From Paenibacillus pasadenensis DSM 19293 (GTDB lineage: Bacteria; Bacillota; Bacilli; Paenibacillales; Paenibacillaceae), in assembly GCF_000422485.1 (NCBI RefSeq), contig NZ_KE383848.1, positions 158,118 through 222,117 on the forward strand: a DNA stretch of 64,000 nt, read 5' to 3'. Position numbers and translations under genes: made by a program. The notes below the pieces were generated by a model, which was given only the letters and a program-made list of their open reading frames with translations, made no database searches and was not told the DNA's origin. How positions within the stretch are numbered: the stretch's first letter is position 1; each line of letters begins with the position of its first letter. Shown here piece by piece: positions 20,860-39,320 of this stretch.

Positions 20860-22266
20860 ATGCAACAATTACCAAGACTAGAGGAGAAGTTCCTTGCAAT
20901 TTCTTTAATTTTCGGTATGCTTTTTATTTTTTTAACACCTCCATTTCAAGTGGCTGATGAAGATAGTCACTATAAAAAAGCTTTTCTAATTTCTGAATTT
21001 ATATTGCTCCCTTCGGTGGTAGATGGGAATATCGGCAACTATTTACCTAAAGAGCTTGTGTTGCTTGAAGAAAGTTTTCGAAGGTTTATTGGTAACAAAG
21101 AAGAAAAATATAGTTATATTGATCAGTACAATGATCTGAACACACCCGCTGATTTTTCCGAAAAAGTTTTTCAGAGTTACAGTACGTCGCAAACAAGTCC
21201 ACTTCTTTATCTTGGATCAGGTAGCGCAATTTTTTTAAGCAAACTATTTGTAAAACCTACTTCGTCAAATTCAGATAATTTCGCTACATATCTCTATGCC
21301 GGAAGAATAGGGAATCTACTATTATATACAACTCTAATTTACTTGGCGATAAAATATATCCCCTTCTATAAAAGAGTGATTGCTTTGCTGGGGCTTATGC
21401 CAATGAGTATGACTTTAGGGGCCTCTAATAGCTACGACGCTGTTGTTATAAGTGTCCTATTTCTAATTTTCTCTTTAATAATGCGGTACATATATTCATC
21501 GGATAAAAAAAATATTTCCAAGAGGGATGTTGTTCTATTATTCATTCTTTCTATTTTTTTGATTGAGCTTAAAACTGTCTATTATCCAATCTTACTGCTT
21601 ATATTTCTTGTTCCTAAAGAAAAGTTCGTAGACTTTAAGAGATCGATTGCCATCTGCTTTGTTCTTGGCGGTGGAGTATTCTCTCACGTAATATGGATGG
21701 GAGTATTAAAGATTGTGTTGCGATCCGCAACTCCAGGTTCAGGACAAGCTCAAGAACAGATTTCGTATATATTGCATAATCCGCTTGACTTTGCAATGGT
21801 TTTAGTTAGAACGTTTACTGAGTTGAGAATGTTTTATGTCAACAGCTTTGTCGGTAATTTTGGATGGCTAGATACGAATCTGCCTAGTTTGGTGGTTATT
21901 GGTTTTTTGATTGTTCTTATCCTTGTGGCATATTCTGATGGTATACATGTACATTTGCCGTTGATGCATAAGGTAGTTTTTGTTGGAATATTTCTCATGG
22001 TGGTTTTAATGATAGAATCCTCGCTTTATATTACTTGGACATCACATCCAGATATCGGGGGTATAGGGCATCCTATAGTTTCTGGTGTGCAAGGGAGATA
22101 CTTCATTCCCTGCATCCCTCTATTCTTGGTTCTGCTACACCGATCCAGAAAATCCGTCAAATTATTAGAAAGGAGAGCAATCTCTCTAGATTTCATAGTA
22201 CCCCTATACTCAATCTCGGTGCTTGCAATAACTTTATTCACATTGCTCCTAAGGTTCTGGATTTAA
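20860..22266 (+). CDS. DUF2142 polytopic membrane protein, probable GT-C glycosyltransferase
   Basis: 468 residues with about 10-11 membrane spans. The family hallmarks are the early extracytoplasmic ADEDSHYKKAF, with acidic residues in the position of the GT-C active site, and VQGRYFIPCIPL near the end. DUF2142 proteins occur in polysaccharide clusters and are thought to transfer sugars from polyprenyl phosphate outside the membrane. First gene of the AT-rich cassette; AAAGGG precedes the ATG. With the polyprenyl-phosphate sugar synthase and SMR-type flippase further on it could form a three-component glycan-modification system. Confidence 0.8.
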   Translation: MQQLPRLEEKFLAISLIFGMLFIFLTPPFQVADEDSHYKKAFLISEFILLPSVVDGNIGNYLPKELVLLEESFRRFIGNKEEKYSYIDQYNDLNTPADFSEKVFQSYSTSQTSPLLYLGSGSAIFLSKLFVKPTSSNSDNFATYLYAGRIGNLLLYTTLIYLAIKYIPFYKRVIALLGLMPMSMTLGASNSYDAVVISVLFLIFSLIMRYIYSSDKKNISKRDVVLLFILSIFLIELKTVYYPILLLIFLVPKEKFVDFKRSIAICFVLGGGVFSHVIWMGVLKIVLRSATPGSGQAQEQISYILHNPLDFAMVLVRTFTELRMFYVNSFVGNFGWLDTNLPSLVVIGFLIVLILVAYSDGIHVHLPLMHKVVFVGIFLMVVLMIESSLYITWTSHPDIGGIGHPIVSGVQGRYFIPCIPLFLVLLHRSRKSVKLLERRAISLDFIVPLYSISVLAITLFTLLLRFWI

Positions 22267-22290
22267 AATGATAAGTTGAGGATGAGTTTA

Positions 22291-23079
22291 ATGAATATTT
22301 TAAAAAAAAGAAGCCTCATTAATTTTATGAAGTATAGAAGTTTGATTTATTTATTGGTAGCTAAAGATTTGAAAGTGAAATATAAGCGTTCAGTGTTGGG
22401 GGTTCTATGGAGCTTATTAAATCCATTATTGACCATGCTTATTATAACAATAGTTTTCAGAGAACTTTTTCGCTTCAATATTGATAATTTTGCTGCCTAT
22501 GTAATAAGTGGACAGGTTCTATTTTCATTTTTGTCCGAATCAACAGGTCTAGCAATGTCCTCTATTTATACATCTGGGCAGATAATTAAGAAAGTCTACA
22601 TTCCTAAATATATTTTCCCTATAACCAAGACCACTTATTCCCTGGTCAATTTACTGTTTTCATTTTTGGCAGTATTGTTAGTTTGTGTTGTGACTAATGT
22701 GTCAATCAATTATACTATTATATTTAGTTTTGTGGCAATTATATATTTATATGTGTTCTGTCTTGGCCTTGGTATGTTATTGAGTAGCCTAGTTATTTTT
22801 TTTAGGGATATTGAACATTTTTATGGAGTCTTCCTCACTGCCTGGATGTACGCTACCCCCATTATTTATCCTATCAGTATCATGCCAGATCGTTTCATGT
22901 TCTTACTATATGCTAATCCACTTTACTACTACATAGAGTATTTTAGATTAGGATTGGTAAATGGGCAGGTACCTTCATGGGATTTAAATCTACACTGTAT
23001 ACTTTATTCTATTGGGACGTTAGCGTTGGGCGTGTATATATTCAACAAAAAACAGGATGAATTCATATTGCATATTTAA
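22291..23079 (+). CDS. wzm: Polysaccharide ABC exporter permease (Wzm/TagG-like)
   Basis: Membrane subunit of an ABC-2 type exporter for undecaprenyl-linked glycans. About 262 residues with six spans; typical is the amphipathic N-terminus (LLVAKDLKVKYKRSVLGVLW) that packs against the ATPase, then LLNPLLTMLI, and YANPLYYYIEYFRLGLVNG near the end. The start at 22291 has GAGGA eight bases upstream; TTG 22276 and ATG 22282 are in frame but badly spaced. Pairs with the ATPase gene 23 bases downstream. Confidence 0.93.
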   Translation: MNILKKRSLINFMKYRSLIYLLVAKDLKVKYKRSVLGVLWSLLNPLLTMLIITIVFRELFRFNIDNFAAYVISGQVLFSFLSESTGLAMSSIYTSGQIIKKVYIPKYIFPITKTTYSLVNLLFSFLAVLLVCVVTNVSINYTIIFSFVAIIYLYVFCLGLGMLLSSLVIFFRDIEHFYGVFLTAWMYATPIIYPISIMPDRFMFLLYANPLYYYIEYFRLGLVNGQVPSWDLNLHCILYSIGTLALGVYIFNKKQDEFILHI

Positions 23080-23102
23080 TGCCTTCCTGGGGGAGCTATA
23101 TA

Positions 23103-23840
23103 ATGACAACCGAATCAATTCGAGTTGAAGATGTATCAATGTGTTTTCATATGACAACGGAAAAGATAAGTACAATGAAGGAATATATAATCAAAAAACT
23201 TAAAGGGCAAATATCTTATAAAGAGTTTTGGGCTTTGCGAAATGTTAGTTTTTCAATTCAAAAGGGTGATATCCTGGGTGTTTTAGGCTTGAATGGAGCA
23301 GGGAAAAGCACATTGCTTAAAATGGTAGCGGGAGTCCTGAAACCTACAAGTGGAAATATATATGTGAACGGAAGTATGGCCCCATTAATTGAATTGGGAG
23401 CTGGATTCGATACAGAATTAACTGCTCGGGAAAATATTTATTTGAATGGTTCTATTTTGGGGCATAGTAAGAAAATGATGAAAAAACATTTTGATGAGAT
23501 TGTTGAATTCTCAGAGTTGCAAGATTTTTTGGATGTCCCGATAAAAAATTTCTCATCGGGAATGTATGCAAGGCTCGGCTTTTCAATTGCAACAATTACG
23601 AAACCTGAGATTTTAATCGTGGATGAAATACTATCAGTAGGTGACTTTAAATTTCAACAGAAATGCGAAAGTAAAATACAAGATATGATTAAAGAAGGGA
23701 CAACAATTATGTTGGTTACTCATTCAATCGATCAAATTAGAGCGTTATGTAACAAGGCGATTGTACTTGAGAAGGGAAGTTTGATTCAATCCGGCACAGT
23801 AGATGCTGTTAGTGATTTTTACTATTCAAAATATACCTAG
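23103..23840 (+). CDS. wzt: Polysaccharide ABC exporter ATPase (Wzt/TagH-like, no carbohydrate-binding tail)
   Basis: ATP-binding subunit driving export of the lipid-linked glycan. Numbering from 23103: Walker A GLNGAGKST (62-70), the SSGM signature NFSSGMYARL typical of O-antigen exporters, Walker B ILIVDEILSVGD, and a switch His in LVTHS. At 245 residues it ends after the nucleotide-binding domain, so the Wzt C-terminal module that reads terminal sugar modifications is absent and export should not need a specific chain cap. The start at 23103 has GGGGGAG eight bases upstream. Confidence 0.94.
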   Translation: MTTESIRVEDVSMCFHMTTEKISTMKEYIIKKLKGQISYKEFWALRNVSFSIQKGDILGVLGLNGAGKSTLLKMVAGVLKPTSGNIYVNGSMAPLIELGAGFDTELTARENIYLNGSILGHSKKMMKKHFDEIVEFSELQDFLDVPIKNFSSGMYARLGFSIATITKPEILIVDEILSVGDFKFQQKCESKIQDMIKEGTTIMLVTHSIDQIRALCNKAIVLEKGSLIQSGTVDAVSDFYYSKYT

Positions 23841-23847
23841 GTGAAGA

Positions 23848-24702
23848 ATGAAAAGGAATATAGTAAGGAAAATTCGATGGTTTTATATAAGATTCGGCAT
23901 CAAGATTACGAATTTAAAGGGTAACAAATGGTATGCTAAAAAGTTGTCTAATGAGCCGGACTTTTCAAAAGAAAGAATGAGTGAAGGAATCAAAATATCG
24001 ATTCTTCTACCTGTATATAATACTCCTTCACAATATTTAATTGAATGCATTGAATCAGTGATGGGGCAGGAATACAGTAACTGGGAATTATGTATTGCTG
24101 ATGATAATTCGAGTCAGCAGCATGTTAAAGAAATTCTTAGATATTACTCAAATAAAGATGATAGAGTTAAAGTGGAATTTAGAAATCGAAATGGGCACAT
24201 TTGTGAATGTACCAATACGGCTTTTGCAATGGCTACGGGGGAGTATTGCGCTTTGCTCGACCATGACGATTTGCTCCATCCTTTTGCTTTATATGAAGTG
24301 GCTAGAGCAATTCACTCATATCCTGAAGCTGTTTTGTTTTATACTGATGAAGATAAATGGTTGGACGGGAAGCGAATCAAACCATTCTATAAAAAAAAGT
24401 GGGGATATAAACACCTTATTGGAATCAATTTCATTTGTCACCTAGCTGTTTATAGAACATCTGCAATACGTCAAGTTGAAGGTTTTCGAGTAGGGACAGA
24501 AGGAGCTCAAGATTGGGACTTGGCTCTGCGTGTAATGGAACTTGAAGAGCCAGTCGTTCATATACCAAAGATCCTATATCACTGGAGAATATCCGAGTTC
24601 TCTACTTCGGGTGGAGAAAAGGCAAAGGATTATATAAAAAATGCGCAATATAAAGTGATACACGATGCGATGGAACGCATAACCAAGAAAGGTGATTTTT
24701 AA
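23848..24702 (+). CDS. Glycosyltransferase family 2
   Basis: Cytoplasmic GT-A fold transferase of 284 residues. SILLPVYNTPSQYLIECIES opens the nucleotide-binding half, ADDNSS and the DxD-like LLDHDDLLHP mark the donor/metal site, and EGAQDWDLALR the acceptor-side acidic motif. A basic helical N-terminus of about 45 residues precedes the domain. It resembles the rhamnosyl- and related transferases of O-antigen and S-layer clusters, but donor and acceptor cannot be assigned. Eight bases after the ATPase gene, one base before the next. Confidence 0.9.
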   Translation: MKRNIVRKIRWFYIRFGIKITNLKGNKWYAKKLSNEPDFSKERMSEGIKISILLPVYNTPSQYLIECIESVMGQEYSNWELCIADDNSSQQHVKEILRYYSNKDDRVKVEFRNRNGHICECTNTAFAMATGEYCALLDHDDLLHPFALYEVARAIHSYPEAVLFYTDEDKWLDGKRIKPFYKKKWGYKHLIGINFICHLAVYRTSAIRQVEGFRVGTEGAQDWDLALRVMELEEPVVHIPKILYHWRISEFSTSGGEKAKDYIKNAQYKVIHDAMERITKKGDF

Positions 24703-24703
24703 T

Positions 24704-26884
24704 ATGAGACTAAATATTCTTCTGAAAAAAAGCTATGCAACACTGAAATACGAGGGGGTACCAAGTTTTTCTAAAAAGACAACTTCATACATAAAGAGAA
24801 ATATACTAGGTAATAAAATAAAGCACAATCATTTCAAAGATATTCTTTTCATAAACGGATGCACCCTTCCGCATCCCTCGCGCTATAGAATTGACCATCA
24901 AATTGAACAACTTCATTTTAATAACTTTTCTGCGGATCAAGTGTACTATGAGAATTTGAAGCTTGAAGATGTTAAGTTTTACAGGGCTTTTGTATTCTTT
25001 AGATGTCCAGTGACAGATTTAATTGAGGATTTCATAAAAGAGGCTAAATACTATAATAAAAAATGCTTCTTTGATATTGATGATTTAGTAATAGATGAGG
25101 AGTATGTTTCAACTATAGCTCATCTGAAAACGATGAGACAGCAAGATTTGAAGCAGTATATGGATGGAGTCAATCGAATGAAGCGAACTATGCTTTTATG
25201 TGACTACATCCTAACTACGACTGAAGGAATGGCAAGAGAACTTAGAAAATTCAATCCACAAACATTTATTAACCGTAATGTAGCCTCTGAAAAAATGGTT
25301 GAGTTATCTTTAAAAGCTATTTCCCAAAAGAAACCTGACCCTCAAAAAGTAATTTTAGGATATTTCAGCGGAAGCATAACTCACAATGCTGATTTCAATA
25401 TGATAAAAGATACTATCATAGATATAATGGTAGATGATCCCAATGTTTACTTGAAGGTAGTAGGCTTATTGGATATACCAGAGGAATTCAATGCAATTCG
25501 GGATCGGATTCTTGTAGAAAAATTTATGGACTGGACCAAGTTGCCGCAGCTTATTGCTTCAGTTGATATCAATCTAGCTCCTGTAGAGGATACCATATTT
25601 AATCAAGCTAAGTCCGAAAATAAATGGACTGAGGCTGCCCTCGTCAAAGTACCTACTGTGGCTAGTAAAGTCGGAGCATTTGAAGAGATAATCGAATCTG
25701 GGACGACGGGCATTCTTTGTTCAAATCAGGAAGAATGGAAGCAATCTTTACTTAAACTTATTCGGGATGATCTAATGCGGAAAGAGATTGGCGGAATGGC
25801 TTTTAAAAAAGCTGTGAATTCTCATACAACTGTTCAAACAGGATATAGTCTTGTTGAATATTTTCAAACGCAGTTGAACGAATCCATCTTATTTGTTTTA
25901 CCCTCTACTCAAATAAGTGGCGGAGTGAATGTGGTTATTAAGCATTGTCACATTTTGAGGAATAATGGCATGGATGTAACTATTCTTTCCATGGGTGATT
26001 CGGAAGAGAATCTTGTAAACAAAGAAGGGTCTATAAATGTGATTTGTTGTCACAAAACACTAATACATGCTACATTCTCTAAAGCCGTTGCAACGCTATG
26101 GACAACATTAAGTTGGATAAATGGTTATTCAAAAATACTTCAGAAATACTATCTTGTCCAGAATTATGAAACTAATTTTTATGAGTACGGTAACGTGATG
26201 AAGATTTGGGCGAATTTAACCTATAATTCCCCTAATACTATATATATTACGATATCAAAATGGTGTAAGGATTGGTTAGAAAACCGTTTTAAGCAAACCG
26301 TAAAGTATGCTGCCAATGGAATTGATTTGAGTTTATTCAAAGAAACAGAGAGGGACTTTTCCGGGAAAGAAAAGATAAAAATTTTGATTGAGGGAAATAG
26401 CAGCGATTATTATAAGAATGTAGATGAAAGTTTCAGAATTTCCAATATGCTCGATAAAGGAAAATTTGAGATTTGGTACTTATCCTATAAGGGTGAACCG
26501 AAAGAATGGTACAAATATGATCGCTTCTTTCACCAAGTTCCTCATGAAAGAGTGAATGAAATTTATTCTCAATGCCATATTCTGCTGAAGTCCAGTCTAT
26601 TAGAAAGTTTCTCATATCCTCCTCTTGAGATGATGGCGACAGGAGGATTTGCTGTGGTAGCACCGAACGAAGGAAACATAGAATATCTGATCGACGGGGA
26701 GAATTCTTTGCTTTATCGGCAGGGTGATATCGAGCATGGATTGGAAATGATCGAAAAGATTTGCAATGACTCAGAATTACGAAAAAAAATTATTGATAAA
26801 TCAAGAATTACGGTGAAGGAACGAAGTTGGGGGTTATTAGAAAAGGACATAATGGATCTCTATCAAATTCGACAAAACGTATAG
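24704..26884 (+). CDS. Large protein with two tandem GT4-like glycosyltransferase domains
   Basis: About 726 residues comprising two GT-B modules. The first (about 45-385) has a degenerate early part with FFDIDDLVIDEEY, then GYFSGSITHNADF, KLPQLIASVDINLAP and a C-terminal ENKWTEAALVKVPTVAS. The second (about 400-720) has PSTQISGGVNVVIKH, NGIDLSLF, and the GT4 E-x7-E region LLESFSYPPLEMMATGG followed by EGNIEYLIDGENSLLY. Two active sites in one chain usually mean a bifunctional chain-building enzyme. The ATG at 24704, one base after the previous stop and nine bases after GAAAGGTG, is preferred to the GTG at 24692. Confidence 0.88.
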   Translation: MRLNILLKKSYATLKYEGVPSFSKKTTSYIKRNILGNKIKHNHFKDILFINGCTLPHPSRYRIDHQIEQLHFNNFSADQVYYENLKLEDVKFYRAFVFFRCPVTDLIEDFIKEAKYYNKKCFFDIDDLVIDEEYVSTIAHLKTMRQQDLKQYMDGVNRMKRTMLLCDYILTTTEGMARELRKFNPQTFINRNVASEKMVELSLKAISQKKPDPQKVILGYFSGSITHNADFNMIKDTIIDIMVDDPNVYLKVVGLLDIPEEFNAIRDRILVEKFMDWTKLPQLIASVDINLAPVEDTIFNQAKSENKWTEAALVKVPTVASKVGAFEEIIESGTTGILCSNQEEWKQSLLKLIRDDLMRKEIGGMAFKKAVNSHTTVQTGYSLVEYFQTQLNESILFVLPSTQISGGVNVVIKHCHILRNNGMDVTILSMGDSEENLVNKEGSINVICCHKTLIHATFSKAVATLWTTLSWINGYSKILQKYYLVQNYETNFYEYGNVMKIWANLTYNSPNTIYITISKWCKDWLENRFKQTVKYAANGIDLSLFKETERDFSGKEKIKILIEGNSSDYYKNVDESFRISNMLDKGKFEIWYLSYKGEPKEWYKYDRFFHQVPHERVNEIYSQCHILLKSSLLESFSYPPLEMMATGGFAVVAPNEGNIEYLIDGENSLLYRQGDIEHGLEMIEKICNDSELRKKIIDKSRITVKERSWGLLEKDIMDLYQIRQNV

Positions 26885-26899
26885 AGGATGAATGTTCAG

Positions 26900-27454
26900 A
26901 TGAAAATTATGGGCAATATAGGGTATAAAATAGGGGTCATTTTACTTCTAAGTTGTGTTCTCTATATTTATATTGCAAACATTGGGGTTGTTAGATCTTA
27001 TGTCGAACAACCGAAGGGTAATATGCCGGTTGGTGAAATTGTAAAAGGCATGCGAGTAGAACAAACTTTTTGGTCTGATAAATCTAATATCTCCGGTTTT
27101 TCGGTTAAGTTGGGGACATACGCTCGAATAAATCAATCTACTATAACATTTATCCTACAAGAGGATTCCGGAAAAGTGATTTATAAAAATACAGTTAAAG
27201 CAGATGGCCTATCTGACAACGCATATTACAAAGTGCGATTCCCTCCTGTTAAAAACTCGAAAAATAAGGAGTACCATTTGATATTAGAAACTAAAGATGC
27301 GAGTCCTGGGAATGCTATTACCGCCTACTCGAGCCAAGAGGATATTTATAAGGGTGGAATTTTGCTTATAGACGGAAAGAAAAGTTCTGCTGATCTAGTG
27401 TTTGAAATAGTTTTTAATGATACATTCTTGCAACGGAGTTTGTTTTTTTTATAG
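26900..27454 (+). CDS. Uncharacterised membrane-anchored extracytoplasmic protein
   Basis: About 184 residues: one N-terminal membrane segment (GVILLLSCVLYIYIANIGVV), then a soluble region with alternating hydrophobic pattern (EQTFWSDKSNISGFSVKLGT, TITFILQEDSGKVIYKNTV) that looks like a jelly-roll-type beta-sandwich, and a hydrophobic C-terminus RSLFFL. Similar sandwiches sit in extracytoplasmic loops of large GT-C and DUF2142-like proteins, so this may be a detached or truncated piece of one. No catalytic motif. The ATG at 26888 has its GAGG directly against it, so 26900 is preferred. Confidence 0.6.
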   Translation: MKIMGNIGYKIGVILLLSCVLYIYIANIGVVRSYVEQPKGNMPVGEIVKGMRVEQTFWSDKSNISGFSVKLGTYARINQSTITFILQEDSGKVIYKNTVKADGLSDNAYYKVRFPPVKNSKNKEYHLILETKDASPGNAITAYSSQEDIYKGGILLIDGKKSSADLVFEIVFNDTFLQRSLFFL

Positions 27455-27469
27455 AGGGGAGCTCGACTA

Positions 27470-28180
27470 ATGGCTAGAGTCCTTGCAATTGTTCCCGCAT
27501 TTAATGAAGAGAAGAATCTAATTTCTCTTTATCGGAAGCTTAAAAGTGTAGAACTCGAGGATCATACCTTCGATATAATTATTATTAATGATTGCTCTAC
27601 AGACAGGACGAAGGAAGTCTGTGATGTAAATGGAATCCCAGTTATTAATCTACCCTGCAATCTCGGCATTGGTGGGGCTGTTCAATCGGGATATAAGTAT
27701 GCACTTAAAAATGATTATGACATTGCACTTCAAGTGGATGGAGATGGGCAGCATGACCCGTCTTATATAACCAAATTAATTGCTCCAATTATTAACGGGG
27801 AGTCGGATATGGTCATAGGATCTCGTTATATTCAAAAACGAGGGTTTCAGTCATCAAAGATGAGGAGGCTGGGGATAAGGTATTTTACGTTGCTTTTGCA
27901 AGCAACTACAGGGCAAAAAATAACGGATCCAACTTCTGGTTTTAGAGCTTGCAATAAAAAAATGATTCGAGAGTTTGCGCGGTATTATCCTGTGGATTAT
28001 CCCGAGCCGGAATCTATTATGTTTTCTAAACGAAATCGCTTTGTTATCAAAGAAATCGCCGTAGAAATGAAGGCCCGAACAGAAGGTCATTCTTCAATTA
28101 CTTCTTTAAAGTCGGTTTATTACATGAGCAAAGTTTCTCTCGCTATAATTATTGATAAAATGAGAAAAGAAATGGTTTAG
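27470..28180 (+). CDS. DPM1-like polyprenyl-phosphate sugar synthase (GT2)
   Basis: A 236-residue GT2 enzyme of the dolichol/undecaprenyl-phosphate mannose or glucose synthase type: AIVPAFNEEKNL, IIINDCSTD, NLGIGGAVQSGYKYA, the QVDGDGQHDP metal site and ITDPTSGFRACNKK are all diagnostic. It makes a polyprenyl-phosphate monosaccharide on the cytoplasmic face, the donor for GT-C enzymes outside. Followed by DUF2304 and an SMR-like transporter, a common neighbourhood for this family. GAGGGGAG precedes the ATG. Confidence 0.9.
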   Translation: MARVLAIVPAFNEEKNLISLYRKLKSVELEDHTFDIIIINDCSTDRTKEVCDVNGIPVINLPCNLGIGGAVQSGYKYALKNDYDIALQVDGDGQHDPSYITKLIAPIINGESDMVIGSRYIQKRGFQSSKMRRLGIRYFTLLLQATTGQKITDPTSGFRACNKKMIREFARYYPVDYPEPESIMFSKRNRFVIKEIAVEMKARTEGHSSITSLKSVYYMSKVSLAIIIDKMRKEMV

Positions 28181-28190
28181 GGGATGGGAT

Positions 28191-28575
28191 ATGATTCCTT
28201 TTAAGCTTCAAATCATTTTGATCGCAGGGTCTTTTCTTTTTCTTTTGTTTGTTATTAATATGATTAGACGTTATAAACTTGAATTACGTTACTCCATGCT
28301 TTGGCTGATCTTGGGGATCATATTTCTAATTCTCGCTCTTATTCCCTCTTCCTTCTCAACAATCTCGAAGGTCATGGGAATAGAACTTCCTGTAAATGCC
28401 CTTTTCCTTATTACTATTTTCGGTAATATGATTATCAACTCTTGTTATTTCTAAGCAAACAATAAAGCTGAAGGAAATATCTCAGGAGATAGGGATTTTT
28501 AGACATGAATATGAGCGATTGAAAGAAATTAAGGAAGAATGTGATGCAAAGCATGATCAAGGGGACTTGGGTTAG
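28191..28575 (+). pseudogene. DUF2304 membrane protein gene interrupted by a frameshift
   Basis: The first frame (28191-28454) gives 87 residues with three membrane spans and stops after NMIINSCYF. The next frame, open from 28432 to the stop at 28573-28575, encodes LSTLVISKQTIKLKEISQEI and a coiled tail ending KHDQGDLG, exactly what the C-terminus of DUF2304 should look like. The reading frame therefore shifts between 28431 and 28454. It could be a true mutation, a base-calling error or programmed frameshifting; no classical slippery site is obvious. DUF2304 proteins accompany DPM1-like synthases, as here. Confidence 0.75.
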
Positions 28576-28915
28576 CTACTTTATTTTAATGCTCAATATC
28601 ATTTTTCTTGTTATGGGCCAAATGTTGTTTAAGTTTGGTCTAAACAAGATAGGTGGCGTCTCAATATTAACCGCTTGGAAAGCAGTCTTTAATCCATTTA
28701 TCTTTACTGGATTAATCCTTTATGTAATCGCGACTTTGCTTTGGTTTGTGGTGCTCTCTAGGCTACCCTTGGCAGTCGCCTATCCAATGCAAACCCTTGC
28801 ATATGTGCTTGGAATTATTATGGCAGTGTTGCTATTTCATGAACAGGTATCTTTAATAAAATGGTTCGGAATGCTGGTGATAATTGTAGGAGTAGTGCTT
28901 ATTGCATGGGAATAA
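28544..28915 (+). CDS. Small four-TM EamA/SMR-type transporter, candidate polyprenyl-phosphate sugar flippase
   Basis: 123 residues, four membrane spans, SMR/EamA-like (GQMLFKFGLNKIGGVS; LPLAVAYPMQTLAYVLGIIM with the conserved AYP). Close in layout to the ArnE/ArnF subunits that flip undecaprenyl-phosphate aminoarabinose. Beside a polyprenyl-phosphate sugar synthase it probably moves that lipid sugar outward. The start at 28544 has AAGGAAG eight bases upstream; it overlaps the shifted end of the DUF2304 gene by 32 bases. Confidence 0.8.
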   Translation: MQSMIKGTWVSYFILMLNIIFLVMGQMLFKFGLNKIGGVSILTAWKAVFNPFIFTGLILYVIATLLWFVVLSRLPLAVAYPMQTLAYVLGIIMAVLLFHEQVSLIKWFGMLVIIVGVVLIAWE

Positions 28916-28934: not shown

Positions 28935-29678
28935 ATGAAAGGTATTATATTAGCTGGAGGCACAGGCTCACGCCTCTATCCCCTCACCAAAGTCACCAAC
29001 AAGCATTTGCTGCCCGTAGGCAAGTATCCAATGATCTTCCATTCCATCGCCAAGCTCAAGGAAGCCGATATCAAGGACATTCTCATCGTAACCGGCAAAG
29101 AGCATATGGGTGATGTGGTGAACTTACTAGGAAGTGGCCATGAATTTGGAGTTTCTCTCACCTACAAAGTTCAAGATCAAGCAGGGGGAATTGCTCAGGC
29201 GCTTGGATTAGCGGAGCACTTTGCAAACCGTGAGCAAATGGTCGTCATCCTAGGAGATAATGTTTTCTCCGACTCCATTGCCGAATATGCGAAAAATTTC
29301 CGCAAACAGAATAAAGGCGCTAAGATCCTCATCCAAGAAGTTCACGATCCGCAGCGCTACGGCGTGCCCGAACTTGATGGTGATCGGATTGTTTCCATCG
29401 AAGAAAAGCCGGCGCAGCCGAAGAGCAGCTATGCCGTTACAGGCATCTATATGTATGACAGCAAGGTGTTCGACATCATTAAAACTCTCCAGCCTTCCGG
29501 CCGAGGAGAGCTTGAGATTACGGATGTCAATAATGCCTATATCAAATCCAACTCTCTCTCATATGATATTTTAAGAGGATGGTGGACCGACGCGGGTACG
29601 CATGCCTCCTTGACCCATGCAAACGAACTGGCTAAAGATCTCGTTTTTGGGGAAGAGTTCGGCAAGCTCAAGCTTTAA
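28935..29678 (+). CDS. rmlA: Glucose-1-phosphate thymidylyltransferase
   Basis: Makes dTDP-glucose from glucose 1-phosphate and dTTP, the first step to dTDP-L-rhamnose. MKGIILAGGTGSRLYPLT carries the nucleotidyl-transfer signature; NKHLLPVGKYPMI and ILGDNVF (metal Asp) follow, then EEKPAQPKSSYAVTGIYMYD. At 247 residues it is the short RmlA form without the C-terminal regulatory extension. GGGAGG lies upstream of the ATG at 28935. Base composition rises sharply from here, marking the end of the AT-rich cassette. Confidence 0.95.
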   Translation: MKGIILAGGTGSRLYPLTKVTNKHLLPVGKYPMIFHSIAKLKEADIKDILIVTGKEHMGDVVNLLGSGHEFGVSLTYKVQDQAGGIAQALGLAEHFANREQMVVILGDNVFSDSIAEYAKNFRKQNKGAKILIQEVHDPQRYGVPELDGDRIVSIEEKPAQPKSSYAVTGIYMYDSKVFDIIKTLQPSGRGELEITDVNNAYIKSNSLSYDILRGWWTDAGTHASLTHANELAKDLVFGEEFGKLKL

Positions 29679-29710
29679 GCAGTGAGAAGAAGAGAAAGGA
29701 TGGTGTTTTC

Positions 29711-30262
29711 TTGAACGTTCACGAGACGAAGCTGCCAGGGTTGAAACTTATTGAGCCAGCCGTTCATGGAGATCACCGGGGCTTTTTTGTCGAAAGCTAT
29801 AACGAAGCCCGGTTTCATCAAAATGGCATCAAGCATGGCTTCATTCAAGACAATCATTCCCTTTCCGTAGAGGCGGGTGTCCTCCGCGGTCTTCACTATC
29901 AGCTCAACCCCAAAGCCCAAACCAAACTCGTCCGCTGCACAGCCGGCGCGATCTACGATGTTGTGGTGGACATCCGCAAAGGTTCTCCTACTTTCGGCCA
30001 GTGGCAAGGATTTATCCTGAGCGCTACCAACCATCGTCAGCTGCTCGTGCCGAAGGGCTTCGCGCATGGCTTCTGCACCTTGGTGCCGAACTCCGAGGTT
30101 CAATACAAGGTGGATGAATTCTACTCGGCGGAACATGATCGGGGCATTGCGTGGAACGATCCTGCGTTCGGAATCGATTGGCCGGTTCGTAAGCCGGTGC
30201 TCTCTGATAAAGACGGGAAGCATCCAGTTCTAGCAGATGCCGATATCAATTTCACCTTTTGA
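29711..30262 (+). CDS. rmlC: dTDP-4-dehydrorhamnose 3,5-epimerase
   Basis: Cupin enzyme, third step of dTDP-L-rhamnose synthesis. 183 residues with DHRGFFVESYNEARF, the catalytic His in GVLRGLHYQLNP, VRCTAGAIYDVVVDIRKGSPTFG shown in part only, FAHGFCTL and EVQYKVDEFYS with the conserved Tyr. The start is TTG at 29711, with AAAGGATGG nine bases upstream; the ATG at 29700 is out of frame and stops quickly. Middle of the rmlACBD operon. Confidence 0.95.
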   Translation: MNVHETKLPGLKLIEPAVHGDHRGFFVESYNEARFHQNGIKHGFIQDNHSLSVEAGVLRGLHYQLNPKAQTKLVRCTAGAIYDVVVDIRKGSPTFGQWQGFILSATNHRQLLVPKGFAHGFCTLVPNSEVQYKVDEFYSAEHDRGIAWNDPAFGIDWPVRKPVLSDKDGKHPVLADADINFTF

Positions 30263-30296
30263 AGGCTGATTCCAACGAGAAAGGAACGTTGCCACT

Positions 30297-31328
30297 GTGA
30301 AGCTGCTCGTTACCGGCGGAGCCGGATTCATCGGGAGCAATTTCGTGCTGTATATGGCCGAAAAGTACTCCGACTATGAAATCATCAATGTCGATGCTCT
30401 AACCTATGCAGGAAATTTGGAAAACCTCAAATCGGTGGAAGGCAATCCGAAGGTCCGATTTGTAAAAGCCGATATTACGAAGCGGGAAGACCTGGAGCCG
30501 CTGTTCCAATCTGGAGTAGATGTCGTGGCGAACTTCGCGGCGGAGTCCCATGTCGACCGCAGCATTCTTGAGCCGGATGTCTTCGTCAAGACGAATGTGC
30601 TCGGCACGCAGACGCTGCTGGAGCTGGCCAAGCAATACGGCGTGCAAAAGTTTGTGCAAGTCTCGACGGACGAGGTGTACGGCACGCTCGGAGAAACGGG
30701 CCTCTTTACCGAGGAGACGCCGCTCGCCGCCAACAGTCCGTACTCAGCCAGCAAGGCGGGAGCCGATCTTCTGGTGCGCGCTTACCACGAGACATTCGGG
30801 CTTCCGGTGAACATCACGCGCTGCTCGAATAACTACGGACCGTTCCAGTTCCCGGAGAAGCTGATTCCGCTCATGATTCAAAACGCGCTGCAAGACAAGC
30901 CGCTGCCCGTCTATGGCGACGGACTGAATGTGCGCGACTGGCTATATGTAGAGGATCATTGCAGCGCGATCGATCTCGTCATCCACAAAGGCGTCGACGG
31001 CGAGGTGTACAATGTCGGCGGACGGAACGAGCGGAACAACCTGCAGGTCGTGAAGACGATCCTTCAGGAGCTGGGCAAGCCGGAAAGCCTCATCCAGTTC
31101 GTCAAGGACCGTCCTGGACATGACCGGCGCTATGCGATCGACGCCGACAAGATCCGCAGCGAGCTTGGCTGGACGCCGAAGCATGACTATGAATCCGGCA
31201 TCCGAGCGACGATCCGTTGGTATTTGGACAACGAGGAATGGATGAAAGGCGTGCTCAGCGGAGCTTACCAGCAGTATTACGACACGCAATATGGAGATCG
31301 GCTGCAGCAGCCGGATAACAAATCATGA
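30297..31328 (+). CDS. rmlB: dTDP-glucose 4,6-dehydratase
   Basis: Extended short-chain dehydrogenase, second step of dTDP-L-rhamnose synthesis. NAD-binding TGGAGFIGSNF at the start, DALTYAGN, the AAESHVDRS loop, VSTDEVYG, and catalytic Y-x3-K in SPYSASKAGAD; NNYGPFQFPEKLIPL completes the family pattern. 343 residues, normal size. GTG start at 30297 with AAAGGA 12 bases upstream. Its stop overlaps the rmlD start by four bases (ATGA), indicating coupled translation. Confidence 0.96.
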   Translation: MKLLVTGGAGFIGSNFVLYMAEKYSDYEIINVDALTYAGNLENLKSVEGNPKVRFVKADITKREDLEPLFQSGVDVVANFAAESHVDRSILEPDVFVKTNVLGTQTLLELAKQYGVQKFVQVSTDEVYGTLGETGLFTEETPLAANSPYSASKAGADLLVRAYHETFGLPVNITRCSNNYGPFQFPEKLIPLMIQNALQDKPLPVYGDGLNVRDWLYVEDHCSAIDLVIHKGVDGEVYNVGGRNERNNLQVVKTILQELGKPESLIQFVKDRPGHDRRYAIDADKIRSELGWTPKHDYESGIRATIRWYLDNEEWMKGVLSGAYQQYYDTQYGDRLQQPDNKS

Positions 31329-32185
31329 GCGAATCGGCTATGAACATCCTGGTCACCGGCGCGAATGGGCAGCTGGGAAAAGAGCTTGCGCTCTGGCAAC
31401 CGGAGGATGGGCTAAACATCGTCGGTCTTGGCCGCGACGAGCTCGATATTACTTCGCTGGAGCAATGCCGGAAGGCCATGGAAGAGCTCAAGCCGGACGT
31501 GGTCATCCACTGCGCCGCTTACACGGCTGTCGATCAGGCGGAGACGGATCGGGACGGCGCCTATCGGGTCAACGCGGCGGGGACTCGCAACGTCGCCTTG
31601 GCGGCGAGAGAGGCGGGAGCCAAGCTCATTTACGTCAGTACGGATTATGTGTTCGATGGTCAAGCAGAGCGTCCTTATGAAGAGTACGACCTGCCGAATC
31701 CCAAGACGGTGTACGGGAAATCAAAACTGGCCGGGGAGCAGCTGGTGCAGTCGCTGCATGACCGCTGGTTCATCGTCCGGACGTCGTGGGTATACGGCAA
31801 GCATGGCGCTAATTTCGTCAAGACGATGCTGAGGCTCGGGGCGGAAAAGGATCGCCTTTCCATCGTGAGCGATCAGTTCGGTTCGCCGACGTATACGAAG
31901 GATTTTGCCGCGCTCCTGCTGGAGCTGGCGCGCTCGGAAGCTTATGGCATCTACCATGCCTCCAATACGGGCAGCTGCTCCTGGCATGAGTTCGCACAGG
32001 CGATTTTCGAGGAAGCCGGTCTGAAGGCGCAAGCCGATCCGTGCACGACGGAGGAATTCCCGCGCCCAGCGCCAAGGCCGAAGTTCTCCATCATGGATCA
32101 TGGGGCGATACGCGTCAACGGCTTCAACGAACTGCCGGAGTGGCGGGAGGCGTTGGTTCGTTTTCTGCAGGAATTAAAAGCGTAG
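31325..32185 (+). CDS. rmlD: dTDP-4-dehydrorhamnose reductase
   Basis: Final NAD(P)H-dependent step giving dTDP-L-rhamnose. 286 residues: NILVTGANGQLGKEL, HCAAYTAVDQAE, VSTDYVFDG and catalytic YGKSKLAGE; RTSWVYG and the sugar-side DQFGSPTYT are also diagnostic. Start at 31325 overlaps rmlB; 31340 is an alternative that begins right at the Rossmann strand. Last gene of the glycan operon before a strong terminator. Confidence 0.95.
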   Translation: MSESAMNILVTGANGQLGKELALWQPEDGLNIVGLGRDELDITSLEQCRKAMEELKPDVVIHCAAYTAVDQAETDRDGAYRVNAAGTRNVALAAREAGAKLIYVSTDYVFDGQAERPYEEYDLPNPKTVYGKSKLAGEQLVQSLHDRWFIVRTSWVYGKHGANFVKTMLRLGAEKDRLSIVSDQFGSPTYTKDFAALLLELARSEAYGIYHASNTGSCSWHEFAQAIFEEAGLKAQADPCTTEEFPRPAPRPKFSIMDHGAIRVNGFNELPEWREALVRFLQELKA

Positions 32186-32190
32186 AAACA

Positions 32191-32232
32191 AAAAGAGAGG
32201 CTCCGGGACTACGTCCTGGGCCTCTCTTTTTG
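32191..32232. terminator. Bidirectional terminator between rmlD and the convergent GT-C gene
   Basis: AAAAGAGAGG (32191-32200) pairs with CCTCTCTTTT (32221-32230), with T/A runs on both sides. It ends the + strand glycan operon and lies across the stop of the minus-strand gene. Confidence 0.88.
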
Positions 32233-33828
32233 CTTGAATTGCAGGAGCATCAAAGCTGCGAGTCCGAGCAGCAGCGCCAGGTTTGCCGCGCTGAGAGCAA
32301 CCGCGAGCGCATGCTCCCAGCCGACAAGCGAGCCACTGCCGAAGCCCCCGCTAAAGGCGCTGCCAGGAGAATCGTCTCGCCAACCGCCTGCCGAGGCATC
32401 TCGCCAAGGCTGGCCGCTCTCGGCAGCTGCACGCCCACGGCCGTCGAAGCCGCCATTGCCGAAGCCCTCGCTCCCATCAAAGCCGCTGCGACCGAGGCCG
32501 CCGCTGCCGTCAGAGCCGCCATGGCTTCTTTCGGCAAAGCCACGGCTCGTCGCGCTGCGGCCGCCCAGCCATTTCCCGCCCATCCCGCCGTTCAGCACCA
32601 TCCAGATGTTGAGCGCGGTAGAGAGGGTGAACCAGCCGGCGGCAAAAGACCAAAGGCGGCGCGGCGTCCAGCGACGTAGAGGATGGGGTGAGCCGGTGCC
32701 GGCGGCTGGTTCCGGGACAAGGACAATCCTCGGACTGGCCGTTGTGTCGAAAGCGGACGTTGTCTCGCGTCCCATCAAAAATGGAACCAGCACCAGGAAC
32801 AGCATCGCCGGAACACCGTACCGCTCGTGGATCTCGGTCGGGAGCATGAAGAAGGCCAGGTTGATGAAGGCGGAGGCCATCAGCAGGTGAACGGTGCGAA
32901 GCTGCTTCAGCAGCAGGACGTAGGCGGCGACGAAGGCGCAGGCCAGGCCGAGCAGGAGGAAGCCGAACGTCTTGTAGCTCATCCCGGCCGCCAAGGTGGT
33001 CGTGTCGTTCAAGGACGGATCTGTAAACAGGTGGTACCACAGGTTGAAGGCGTTCAGCGACAGCTGCGGGTACATGTCGGTCGCGCTCAAGTAGGCGGCC
33101 TGGACCATGTCGTCCAGCGTGCCGTTGGCGCTGAAACAGGCGGCTGTCAGCGCAAGCGGAGCCAGAAAGCCTGCCGCAAGCAGCAGCGGATGGGCAAAGT
33201 CCCGCCGCAGCATCCGGCGCAGCGCATACGCTCCGATAACAGGCGCGATGACGATCGCCTGGAACTTGCTGAGCAGAGCGATGCCGAGAAGCGCTCCCGC
33301 CAGAAACGGCTGGCCGACGAGCGCGAGCACGCCCAGCGCCATGAGCAGGCTATGGAAGACGTCAATTTGACCCCAGATCGCCCCGTCGGCGAGCAGCGCC
33401 GGATTCAGCGCCAGCGCTCCAAGCAGGAGCAGCTGCGAGCGCCGGGATAGCCGGCGGCGCAGGACGAGGGGCAGGATCGCCATGGCGAGCAGATCGAACA
33501 GGATCGGAAGCGCTTTGGAGGTCAGATGGGCCGTCTTGATCTCCAGCCCAAGGGCATTCAGCACATGGCCATAGCCCTCCAGGATCGCGATGAAAACGGG
33601 AGGGTAATTCTGCATGTCCGCATGCACGTAGGAAAGGCGGACGCCATGCTCCATCGCGCCTTGCATCCAGCGGATGAAGTACATTTGGTCGCCGACATAG
33701 CCGTTTGTATAGAGGCCGAGGAGCAAGCGAGCGGCAAGTCCGGCCAGGAACAGCCCGGCGGCCCATAGGCCGAAGGTCCGTGCGGACATCGGCTCGGCTA
33801 GAGAAGCGGCAGAGGAGGAAGAGGACAA
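32209..33828 (-). CDS. GT-C family membrane glycosyltransferase, Gpi18/mannosyltransferase-like
   Basis: About 539 residues with 10-12 membrane spans. After the first span the loop GYVGDQMYFIRWMQGAMEHG carries the acidic residue expected of GT-C enzymes; ADMQNYPPVF, WGQIDVFHSLLMALG and PTEIHERYGVPAML are typical of COG5542-type mannosyltransferases using polyprenyl-phosphate sugars. A Gly/Ser-rich, repeat-like segment of about 75 residues sits between the last two spans, probably outside the membrane. A TTG at 33826-33828, ten bases after AAAGGAGG, is the best start; the first downstream ATG is at 33789, and an upstream ATG would run into repeats. Convergent with rmlD; function in this glycan is unproven. 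Confidence 0.78.
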   Translation of the reverse strand: MSSSSSAASLAEPMSARTFGLWAAGLFLAGLAARLLLGLYTNGYVGDQMYFIRWMQGAMEHGVRLSYVHADMQNYPPVFIAILEGYGHVLNALGLEIKTAHLTSKALPILFDLLAMAILPLVLRRRLSRRSQLLLLGALALNPALLADGAIWGQIDVFHSLLMALGVLALVGQPFLAGALLGIALLSKFQAIVIAPVIGAYALRRMLRRDFAHPLLLAAGFLAPLALTAACFSANGTLDDMVQAAYLSATDMYPQLSLNAFNLWYHLFTDPSLNDTTTLAAGMSYKTFGFLLLGLACAFVAAYVLLLKQLRTVHLLMASAFINLAFFMLPTEIHERYGVPAMLFLVLVPFLMGRETTSAFDTTASPRIVLVPEPAAGTGSPHPLRRWTPRRLWSFAAGWFTLSTALNIWMVLNGGMGGKWLGGRSATSRGFAERSHGGSDGSGGLGRSGFDGSEGFGNGGFDGRGRAAAESGQPWRDASAGGWRDDSPGSAFSGGFGSGSLVGWEHALAVALSAANLALLLGLAALMLLQFKQKERPRT

Positions 33829-33894
33829 GGGCGGGGGCCCTCCTTTCGGCAGGAAGTGGAGATGTCCAAGAATCCGGCTTATATGTCGGCATCC

Positions 33895-33982
33895 GGAATT
33901 CGGCATCCGGCATCCGGCATGTGGAAGCCGGCATCAGGTACCCGGCATCAGGTACCCGGCATCCGGATGCCGGGTACCTGAT
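33895..33982. repeat. CGGCATC repeat cluster ending in a 36-bp perfect palindrome
   Basis: Between the GT-C and AraC genes, CGGCATCCGG-type units recur, then GCATCAGGTACCCG is repeated in tandem (33931-33944, 33945-33958). The block 33947-33982 is a perfect 36-bp palindrome centred at CATCC|GGATG with KpnI-like GGTACC in each arm. It lacks a T-run. It resembles a REP/BIME-type intergenic element or a strong cruciform; other copies cannot be checked here. Confidence 0.8.
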
Positions 33983-34876: not shown

Positions 34877-35272
34877 GGCGGGCAGCCACCTTTCTCAGGT
34901 AGGATTGGAGCGCCGAGCCGCGAGCGGCTTCAGGCTGGGGAATGCGGCGGCAGGCAAGGGCGTGGACGCGGAATCATCCGGTCGACCCTCTCTGGAATCG
35001 GTGGACGCCGTCGGACGAGAGGCCGTCGAAAGGATCCGTCCGGCCTGGGTCATAGCCGCATCTGCGCGAGCTCTCCTTCCAGACGGCGCAAGCCGGGAAT
35101 TTGTTTTGGACAAGGCTTATTCAGTATAGCCGATCCAGATGAATCCCAGATGAACGGCGGCGAGATTCTTCGAGATGACCAGATCGTTGAGGTTCCTAGC
35201 CAGATTGTTTCTACAAAGGATAAGGGCTCTCCTTTTATAATAAGGGCATAGGTTGAGGAAAGGATGAGCCCG
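34877..35272. other. Intergenic region between the AraC gene and GH30-GH1
   Basis: About 34877-35110 is GC-rich and holds nothing recognisable. 35110-35272 is AT-richer: a perfect TATAAT (35236-35241) is the likely -10 of the GH30 gene, without a convincing -35, and TAAGGGC occurs at 35221 and 35241 on either side of it as a possible activator or repressor site. The missing -35 is consistent with activator dependence. Confidence 0.45.
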
Positions 35273-36652
35273 ATGAACGAGCAGGCTGCAAGCGCATTCT
35301 TAACGACGGAGGCCGGAACGATCCGTCTCGTGCAGACCGCGAAAGACACCGGCGAACGGCTCGCCGAGCAGCCACGGCTGAGCTTCCGCGCCGACGAGAA
35401 CGGCCACGAGAGCCAACTGATCAACATTTACGACGACATCTCCTACCAGACGATCGAAGGCTTCGGCGGAGCGCTGACAGAGGCGTCTGCCGTGACGATC
35501 GCCAAGATGAGCCCGGCCCGCCAGCAGGAGATCATCGACGCGTACTTCGATCCGGAAAAGGGCATCGGATACACGCTCTGCCGCTCGCATATCCAGAGCT
35601 GCGACTTCTCCCTCGGCAACTATGCCTATGTGGAGGACGGCGACGACGAGCTCGCCACGTTCACGGTCGAGCATGACCGCGAGCAGATCCTGCCGCTCAT
35701 CCGCCGCGCGGCTCAGAAGGCCGGCCGCGAGTTCAAGCTGTTCTCCTCGCCGTGGAGCCCGCCTCCGTTCATGAAGACGAACGGCCAGATGAACCAGGGC
35801 GGCCAGCTGAAGCCGGAGTACCGCCAGGCGTGGGCCGACATGTTCGTGAAGTACGTGCAGGCGTACGAGGCGGAAGGCGTCAAGATCTGGGCGCTCAGCG
35901 TGCAGAACGAGGCCAAGGCGGTGCAGACCTGGGATTCCTGCGTGTATACGGCCGAGGAGGAAAAGGACTTCGTGCGCGACCATCTCGGTCCCGCGCTGCA
36001 GCAGGCTGGCTACGGCCACATCAAGGTGATGATCTGGGACCACAACAAGGAGCGCGTCTATGAGCGCGCGGTCGCCGCTTTCACCGACCCGGAAGCGTCG
36101 AAGCAGATCTGGGGCATCTGCTTCCACTGGTACTCCGGCGACCACTTCGAGGCGCTCTCGGCGGTGCATGACCGCTTCCCGGACAAGGCGCTGTTCTTCA
36201 GCGAGGGCTGCCAGGAGGGCGGCGTCCAGCTCGGCTCCTGGGCGACCGGCGAGCGCTACGGCCACGACATCCTCGGCAACCTGAACCACTGGACGACGGG
36301 CTGGACCGACTGGAACATCGTGCTCGACGAGCGCGGCGGTCCGAACCATGTCGGCAATTTCTGCGACGCGCCGATCATCGCCGACACGACGACCGACGAA
36401 ATCACTTATGAAAGCTCGTTCTACTACATCGCGCATTTCAGCCGCTACATCCGTCCCGGCGCGGTCCGCATCGGCAGCTCCCGCTACACCGACAAGCTGG
36501 AGCAGACGGCGTTCCGCAATCCGGACGGCACGATCGCACTCGTCGTGCTGAACCGCACCGACGCCGAGCTGCCGTACGTCGTGCGCCATCGCGGCCAGCT
36601 GGCCGACAGCTCGATTCCGGCGCACGCGATCCAGACGCTGCTGTTCCGCTAG
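35273..36652 (+). CDS. Glycoside hydrolase family 30 beta-glucosidase/glucosylceramidase-like enzyme
   Basis: Cytoplasmic (no signal peptide) retaining GH30 enzyme. Counting from the ATG at 35264, the acid/base is E216 in LSVQNEAKAV and the nucleophile E314 in ALFFSEGCQEGG; IEGFGGALTEAS and FKLFSSPWSPPPFMK are clan-A landmarks, and a short beta domain ends the protein. 35273 is chosen because AAAGGA lies eight bases before it; 35264 (three residues longer) is also possible. With the GH1 enzyme 71 bases downstream it probably hydrolyses imported beta-glucosides or beta-1,6-gluco-oligomers. Confidence 0.93.
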   Translation: MNEQAASAFLTTEAGTIRLVQTAKDTGERLAEQPRLSFRADENGHESQLINIYDDISYQTIEGFGGALTEASAVTIAKMSPARQQEIIDAYFDPEKGIGYTLCRSHIQSCDFSLGNYAYVEDGDDELATFTVEHDREQILPLIRRAAQKAGREFKLFSSPWSPPPFMKTNGQMNQGGQLKPEYRQAWADMFVKYVQAYEAEGVKIWALSVQNEAKAVQTWDSCVYTAEEEKDFVRDHLGPALQQAGYGHIKVMIWDHNKERVYERAVAAFTDPEASKQIWGICFHWYSGDHFEALSAVHDRFPDKALFFSEGCQEGGVQLGSWATGERYGHDILGNLNHWTTGWTDWNIVLDERGGPNHVGNFCDAPIIADTTTDEITYESSFYYIAHFSRYIRPGAVRIGSSRYTDKLEQTAFRNPDGTIALVVLNRTDAELPYVVRHRGQLADSSIPAHAIQTLLFR

Positions 36653-36723
36653 CCCGTTCGGACTTCGTCCGCAGAAGAAGCCCGGCACTGCGGCATCAAC
36701 CTACTTGATCAGGAGGAATTCCT

Positions 36724-39284: not shown

Positions 39285-39320
39285 GTGAGAGAAAAGAACG
39301 ACTATATTGCACGAGCGGTG

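Follow-up and report, generated by a model that had tools for sequence, protein, structure and literature searches.

A candidate lipid-linked-sugar decoration module in an S-layer-glycan-type gene cluster of Paenibacillus pasadenensis, with a broken DUF2304 gene and an undescribed jelly-roll domain

A 64,000-nt stretch of Paenibacillus pasadenensis DSM 19293 (genome G000, contig C3; hereinafter the window) probably encodes an ABC-exporter-dependent, rhamnose-containing glycan cluster of the S-layer glycosylation (slg) type that brings its own transmembrane decoration module. Its parts belong to known kinds but are combined in a new way, and they include one undescribed domain, hereinafter designated BS188. 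Gene content, homology, fold, co-occurrence, fusions and a frameshift are directly established. An earlier sequence-only reading had proposed a lipid-linked-sugar system with a flippase and a GT-C enzyme, and this is still the best reading given the protein families, the GT-C fold and the co-occurrence. That reading nevertheless took the role of DUF2304 to be undescribed and missed both the frameshift and the BS188 gene.

Layout of the cassette

The genes considered are the following.

16415–18007, − strand: SLH-domain surface protein (PF00395 1.5e-29, 3 stretches)
18262–20748, − strand: O-antigen-ligase-like protein with TPR, candidate WsfB-like oligosaccharyl:protein transferase (PF04932 Wzy_C 3.8e-16, TPR_14)
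20860–22266, + strand: DUF2142 polytopic protein, candidate GT-C glycosyltransferase (PF09913 2e-62)
22276–23079, + strand: Wzm-like ABC-2 permease (PF01061 2.3e-19)
23079–23840, + strand: Wzt-like ATPase of 253 aa without a Wzt_C domain (PF00005 2.4e-22; PF14524 absent)
23848–24702, + strand: GT2 glycosyltransferase (PF00535 3.3e-26)
24692–26884, + strand: two-domain GT1/GT4-type glycosyltransferase (PF00534/PF13692, 2 stretches)
26888–27454, + strand: BS188, N-terminal TM helix and jelly-roll domain, 188 residues, candidate glycan-holding module (AF2 fold, fusions; no Pfam or NCBIfam match)
27470–28180, + strand: candidate GT2 polyprenyl-phosphate sugar synthase, DPMS/GacI-like, no predicted TM (PF00535 7.8e-25)
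28191–28575, + strand: DUF2304 (GacJ/WpsB-like) gene, frameshifted (frame A 28191–28454, 87 aa; tail in the +1 frame, 28429–28575)
28541–28915, + strand: SMR/EamA-like four-TM protein, candidate flippase, ArnE/ArnF-like (EamA PF00892 7e-8, over cut-off)
28935–32185, + strand: rmlA, rmlC, rmlB and rmlD, dTDP-L-rhamnose genes (PF00483, PF00908, PF16363/PF01370, PF04321)
39285–40754, + strand: polyprenyl-phosphate hexose-1-phosphate transferase (PHPT), candidate WsfP-like initiator (PF02397 1.8e-71, PF13727)

Positions 20860–28915 form a one-strand run of almost abutting genes in the order DUF2142, Wzm, Wzt, GT2, two-domain GT, BS188, GT2 synthase, DUF2304 and SMR/EamA, followed by rmlA, C, B and D. 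The DUF2142 gene thus heads the same cassette, as had been claimed, and its candidacy as a GT-C is backed by the fold of a homologue (below). On the opposite strand, the Wzy_C+TPR ligase-like gene lies before DUF2142, and the SLH protein gene before that. No GtrA flippase was found among the cassette genes scanned. The run has 35.4% G+C against 63.3% in the rest of the window, and a search of seven genomes of the same genus found no DUF2142; both observations suggest that the run was likely gained from outside.

Published rules for slg clusters place the glycosyltransferases centrally, wzm/wzt upstream, the rml genes downstream and a low G+C content in the center (PMC2943079). All of these features recur in the window, which also holds a PHPT initiator (PF02397) and a Wzy_C ligase (PF04932 with TPR), the domain combination described for Paenibacillus alvei WsfB (PMC2943079). 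By its gene order, the cassette therefore has the layout of an slg-type cluster, and an SLH protein adjoins it.

The interval beyond the rml genes holds a 565-aa protein with 9 predicted TM helices, a Gly/Ser-rich stretch and no Pfam match (32209–33906, − strand). Between the rml genes and the PF02397 transferase (35264–38070) lie two ORFs that we take to resemble the glycoside hydrolases GH30 and GH1.

The GT2–DUF2304–SMR triad and its broken member

The synthase candidate has 0 TM segments by hydropathy count and carries DGDGQHDP at residue 90, which supplies the DxD motif of a GacI-type enzyme. Its best PDB match is the Dol-P-Man synthase 5mlz (1.3e-16), and its NCBIfam matches, both under cut-off, are AglJ (1.1e-21) and, second, PpgS (4.7e-21). 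A DUF2304 gene follows directly downstream (PF10066 at 28191), as in a GacI/GacJ-type pair. The adjacent GT2, DUF2304 and SMR genes of the sequence-only reading are all present (PF00535, PF10066, PF00892), but the second of them is frameshifted. The ORF at 28191–28454 matches PF10066 at 3.1e-17 over model positions 2–78 of 106, while model positions 64–105 match another frame (C3:186498–186623, window 28381–28506), the +1 frame being open over 28429–28575. Alignment with six intact relatives shows the window gene to be short by a net 11 bases within its third TM helix, and none of the 54 full-length DUF2304 matches in relatives has an internal stop. Because of this 11-bp loss, the three-gene set includes one broken gene: the 87-aa product differs from an intact GacJ-type protein with three TM helices and a C-terminal helix, and function in this strain is not assured. 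The gap could be an assembly error. A programmed frameshift is unlikely by reasoning, as the two frames overlap only in 28429–28454 and a jump there would, given the 11-base gap, leave TM3 about 4 codons short. A second GT2–DUF2304–SMR set lies on the same contig (C3:329429, locus L074) with an intact DUF2304 in a 140-aa open frame; it is divergent from the window set, with identities of 48% for GT2, 23% for DUF2304 and 46% for SMR.

DUF2304 is also carried by Rv3632. That protein assists the synthase PpgS (PMC9671496), and DUF2304 is typical of the GacJ-like proteins encoded directly downstream of GacI homologues (PMC8327497). GacI/GacJ and WpsA/WpsB produce GlcNAc-P-C55, and WpsB is an activator of WpsA that raises the yield (PMC10821137). 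The supposed novelty of DUF2304 in such gene sets thus fails, since a GacJ/WpsB-type activator of GacI/WpsA synthases is already in print in these sources (PMC8327497, PMC10821137; for Rv3632–PpgS, PMC9671496). An AlphaFold model published for lactococcal WpsA/WpsB has WpsB residues 93–115 in contact with the synthase (PMC10821137); the 87-residue product of the window would be without this modeled docking part.

To place the triad among relatives, we took the surroundings of 54 full-length DUF2304 matches; 47 of the 98 genomes, G000 among them, have a DUF2304 score over cut-off. Under a strict spacing rule, a GT2 gene lies directly upstream in 52/54 loci and an SMR gene directly downstream in 38/54, which confirms the co-occurrence of DUF2304 with SMR-type partners that the sequence-only reading had proposed as a check. 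The two GT2 'misses' (L056, L059) do show a GT2 under a looser table, and the 16 loci without SMR become 14 once the over-extended ORFs of L075 and L080 are credited as SMR; SMR is also missing from L039, whose cassette is near-syntenic with that of the window. The seven HMMs used gave 0 matches among 8092 reversed ORFs. With GT2 and SMR at these frequencies, the neighborhood is not a matter of chance, and relatives regularly carry GT2–DUF2304–SMR as a triad. Neobacillus dielmonensis (L142) and Bacillus sp. OK048 (L149) carry GT2, DUF2304, SMR and a fused BS–DUF2142 gene in a row.

Natural swaps fit the roles proposed for the triad members. A PF03706 (MprF-flippase-like) protein stands directly behind DUF2304, in the SMR slot, at L072:5850–6836 and L099:12531–13496, and PF03706-type proteins have been proposed as glycosylation flippases (PMC5898192). 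At L093:5570–7169, in a cassette otherwise like that of the window, DUF2304 is missing, the GT2 protein has 314 aa with 2 predicted TM segments, and two EamA/SMR genes follow; this swap would fit DUF2304 as a detached membrane anchor.

Some loci differ in what precedes the triad: a large DUF7657/DUF7654 membrane protein at L045:8082–10517 and, at L041:3585–6300, a 707-aa 12-TM protein with no Pfam match, adjoined by a 189-aa lipoprotein-like gene. Partial DUF2304 matches, covering the N-terminal half only, occur in five genus genomes (G000, G001, G005, G006 and G007; at L095–L098, G007:C1:1878133–1878300 and G000:C27:7913–8068), with an ABC ATPase gene nearby in four of the fetched loci.

In ArnE/ArnF, a four-TM SMR architecture is used to flip single sugars. 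The window protein scores best in NCBIfam against ArnF (1.8e-13; 51 bits against a cut-off of 99) and ArnE (1.2e-10; 41.6 against 92), both below the curated cut-offs, and the protein belongs with EamA/SMR rather than with GtrA- or Wzx-type flippases. It matches the SMR family PF00893 under cut-off (0.0033) and an EmrE profile at 0.035, too weakly to place the acidic TM1 residue of EmrE. These faint SMR/EmrE similarities would also suit a drug or metabolite transporter that merely happens to lie nearby; we regard this as very improbable, because the gene stands directly behind GT2–DUF2304 in so many loci, because its best NCBIfam matches are ArnF and ArnE, and because other loci fill the same slot with a pair of EamA/SMR genes or with PF03706.

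The DUF2142 protein and a route for a lipid-linked sugar

The DUF2142 homologue of L142 (673 residues) was modeled with AF2 (pLDDT 82, pTM 0.81) and its fold compared by VIA-align. Its DUF2142 part (residues ~220–673) aligns with ALG12 at Z 18.6 (rmsd 4.7, 323 residues aligned), Pmt4 at Z 15.8, AftB at Z 15.6 and ArnT at Z 14.9, the alignments to the GT-C enzymes spanning 312 to 343 residues; a shared arrangement of helices can by itself give helical proteins a Z as high as 13, but the matches here are nearly all GT-C enzymes. Foldseek alone gave weaker matches (mycobacterial Emb chain 7.6e-4, ArnT 0.019). D33, E34 and H37 are invariant in 6 proteins, and D/E/H is invariant in 42 homologues; the loop with this acidic motif is presumably external. 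Judged by the model, DUF2142 folds as a GT-C and carries the acidic motif expected of one.

Linkage between DUF2142 and DUF2304, the second co-occurrence proposed for checking, was also found. Among the best 80 of 262 DUF2142 loci from a scan of the genome contigs collection, 26 have DUF2304 within the fetched locus (up to 10 kb) and 20 have it within 1.5 kb on the same strand. No DUF2304 match was found in the other 54 of these 80, DUF2142 occurs conversely in only 4/54 DUF2304 loci, and a PMT-type protein takes its place in L062, so that DUF2142 appears as one partner among several. Across 98 genomes, DUF2142 is over cut-off in 6, DUF2304 in 47 and both in 5; co-occurrence at this level is too small to tell, and physical linkage is the evidence.

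In the route we propose, the soluble GT2 would load polyprenyl phosphate with one sugar at the cytoplasmic face, where the GacJ/WpsB-type DUF2304 membrane protein would normally dock and activate the enzyme; the SMR/EamA protein would flip the lipid-sugar, presumably outward; and the DUF2142 GT-C would move the sugar, outside, onto what is presumably the Wzm/Wzt-exported glycan. Membrane-anchored BS188 may keep the glycan close to Wzm and DUF2142 as it emerges. With the synthase-docking end of DUF2304 lost, the module in this strain probably either works less well or draws in trans on the second GT2–DUF2304–SMR set of the contig, which is intact.

Decay could go further than this: the module might be a decaying pseudo-operon in which DUF2304 is broken, the synthase idle and the exported glycan undecorated. 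The net 11-bp loss, which removes TM3 and leaves the tail out of frame, would suit such decay, as would the absence of internal stops from all 54 full-length genes of relatives. We nevertheless hold it rather doubtful, because the GT2, SMR, DUF2142 and BS188 frames are all open, because a lactococcal wpsB mutant still yields product in lower amount (PMC10821137) and because an intact set is encoded on the same contig. A further alternative keeps the synthase active but gives its lipid-sugar another fate, as the base for a separate oligosaccharide that is built inside, then flipped and attached. This is the lactococcal precedent, in which GlcNAc-P-C55 made by WpsA/WpsB is extended by cytoplasmic glycosyltransferases before flipping and WpsJ attachment (PMC10821137), and lactococcal WpsJ and WpsI are described as DUF2142 proteins (PMC12599335); the window cassette moreover holds two further glycosyltransferase genes. 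Those genes, however, lie beside the genes for Wzm/Wzt, the exporter of the main glycan, and the place of the lactococcal Wzx flippase is taken here by a four-TM SMR protein, which makes an oligosaccharide route unlikely and argues for single-sugar decoration.

The proposed decoration module resembles several described systems in its logic. It shares with GacI/GacJ/GacK/GacL of S. pyogenes and WpsA/WpsB/WpsG/WpsJ of lactococci, as described, a soluble GT2 with a small DUF2304 membrane protein, a flippase and a GT-C (DUF2142 in WpsJ/WpsI). Unlike those systems, it has an SMR/EamA rather than a Wzx-type flippase candidate, a candidate ABC-exported S-layer-type glycan as acceptor, a broken DUF2304 and a separate BS188 domain protein. 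The logic of synthase, flippase and GT-C is also that of CsbB/GtcA/YfhO-type three-component systems (PMC8035078), but the window has neither a GtrA-type flippase nor a membrane-anchored GT-A synthase. The arabinogalactan GalN system of PpgS/Rv3632 (Cgp_0393) likewise relies on a partner-assisted polyprenyl-phosphate sugar synthase (PMC9671496), with another GT-C and acceptor and a flippase not identified in that account. ArnE/ArnF, the undecaprenyl-phosphate-Ara4N flippase, provides the best NCBIfam matches of the SMR protein, although the scores fall under cut-off and the window has one gene instead of two.

The slg cluster of P. alvei is closest in setting, with wzm/wzt, glycosyltransferases, rml genes, a PHPT and a Wzy_C+TPR ligase. 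WsfH and WsfD have been proposed there to add a branching glucose via a separate lipid carrier, and the account notes no flippase in the cluster (PMC2943079). The window differs in having an SMR candidate, DUF2304 and DUF2142, WsfH and WsfD being compared by their published description. By analogy, the SMR protein is a candidate for the slot noted as empty in P. alvei, with the same logic. The triad, widespread in the family of the window, would thus offer a candidate kind for the flippase missing from the published cluster (PMC2943079).

BS188, a jelly-roll domain in glycan cassettes

The gene just outside the stretch covered by the sequence-only reading encodes BS188, an undescribed domain and the most interesting item of the cassette. 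Neither Pfam (E up to 0.01) nor NCBIfam gave a match in the window protein, and Pfam gave none in the BS domain parts of L112, L128, L142, L146 and L189, an absence that is no proof of a new family. The AF2 model (pLDDT 89.3) comprises a helix at residues 3–32 and a beta domain. Its top fold matches are a phage phi812 baseplate protein (Z 14.7) and the capsid protein of the algal virus PBCV-1 (Z 14.4), followed by the lectin-like domain of Cwp84 (Z 11.6) and several carbohydrate-binding modules at Z 7.5 to 9.5, among them CBM15 (Z 8.4); values near 8 are common, and the fold alone is not evidence of function. No Wzt entry is among the 50 matches listed for the fold, which proves nothing on Wzt_C homology.

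Fusions tie the domain to two membrane partners. Because the iterated BS profile contains its own matches, the independent test is a profile built only from four stand-alone proteins (window, L039, L044 and L093). This profile finds the domain N-terminal to DUF2142 in L142 (1e-29), L149 (1.2e-27), L162, L161 and others, C-terminal to DUF2142 in L146 (7.5e-20), and ahead of an ABC-2 permease in L112 (2.1e-15), L161 (5.8e-13) and L128 (7.7e-11). With the iterated profile, the domain is present in 22 of the best 80 DUF2142 loci.

BS-seeded searches found the domain in 7 of 398 phylum genomes (E up to 0.001) and, at E up to 1e-6, in 7 of 295 genomes from the order to which G409 belongs and in 27 of 394 from the window's own family. 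Forty loci were taken and two dropped for want of a BS ORF of at least 70 aa (L249, L250). Nearby genes in the remaining 38 include both Wzm and Wzt in 30, DUF2142 in 16, DUF2304 in 13 and SMR in 12, counts that are not independent, since the loci are mostly glycan loci of one family. As a background, the Wzm profile matches 2/54 DUF2304 loci, both with a BS gene. Further BS–Wzm fusions occur in L187, L188, L236, L251, L252, L253 and L254.

The type of BS protein goes with the length of Wzt. Where BS is fused to Wzm or stands alone with a single TM helix, Wzt is short (at most 273 aa) in 18/18 loci; in the other 13 BS loci with Wzt, it is long (at least 370 aa) in 10 (Fisher p 6e-6, a value that ignores relatedness and rests on a grouping chosen after seeing the table). 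Pfam Wzt_C is present in 6/6 long Wzt proteins tested and in 0/4 short ones. Wzt_C is a cytoplasmic sugar-reading domain, and it is missing from the short Wzt proteins of BS cassettes, which suggests, without proving it, that BS188 is an outside substitute for Wzt_C. Large glycosyltransferases that appear to be cytoplasmic and have one predicted TM segment at most (L190, L245, L248) contain the BS domain too, as do the L243/L244 proteins; these occurrences do not fit a purely external role and count against the substitute reading.

Whether small GT-C enzymes need an extra protein to recognize the acceptor polymer has been asked in print (PMC8035078), and a tangible candidate for such a protein is BS188, which some genomes fuse to DUF2142 and others encode separately. 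Together with that of the flippase missing in P. alvei, two questions left open in print thereby become testable, with the warning that the DUF2304 gene of this strain is itself broken.

We put forward only tentatively that BS188 is an extracytoplasmic glycan-capture domain, joined to Wzm or to DUF2142 or tethered between them, through which the polymer leaving the exporter would be handed directly to the branching enzyme, as an external counterpart of Wzt_C. In the open-licence PMC literature we found no account of an extracytoplasmic carbohydrate-binding domain fused to Wzm, an absence of little weight. That BS188 instead plays a structural or docking part in the exporter and makes no contact with sugar is a serious possibility, if still short of probable: its closest folds are the baseplate and capsid proteins and not a sugar-binding module, but later matches do include the Cwp84 lectin-like domain and CBM15, the latter at a Z that is common, and the domain is also fused to GT-C and glycosyltransferase proteins.
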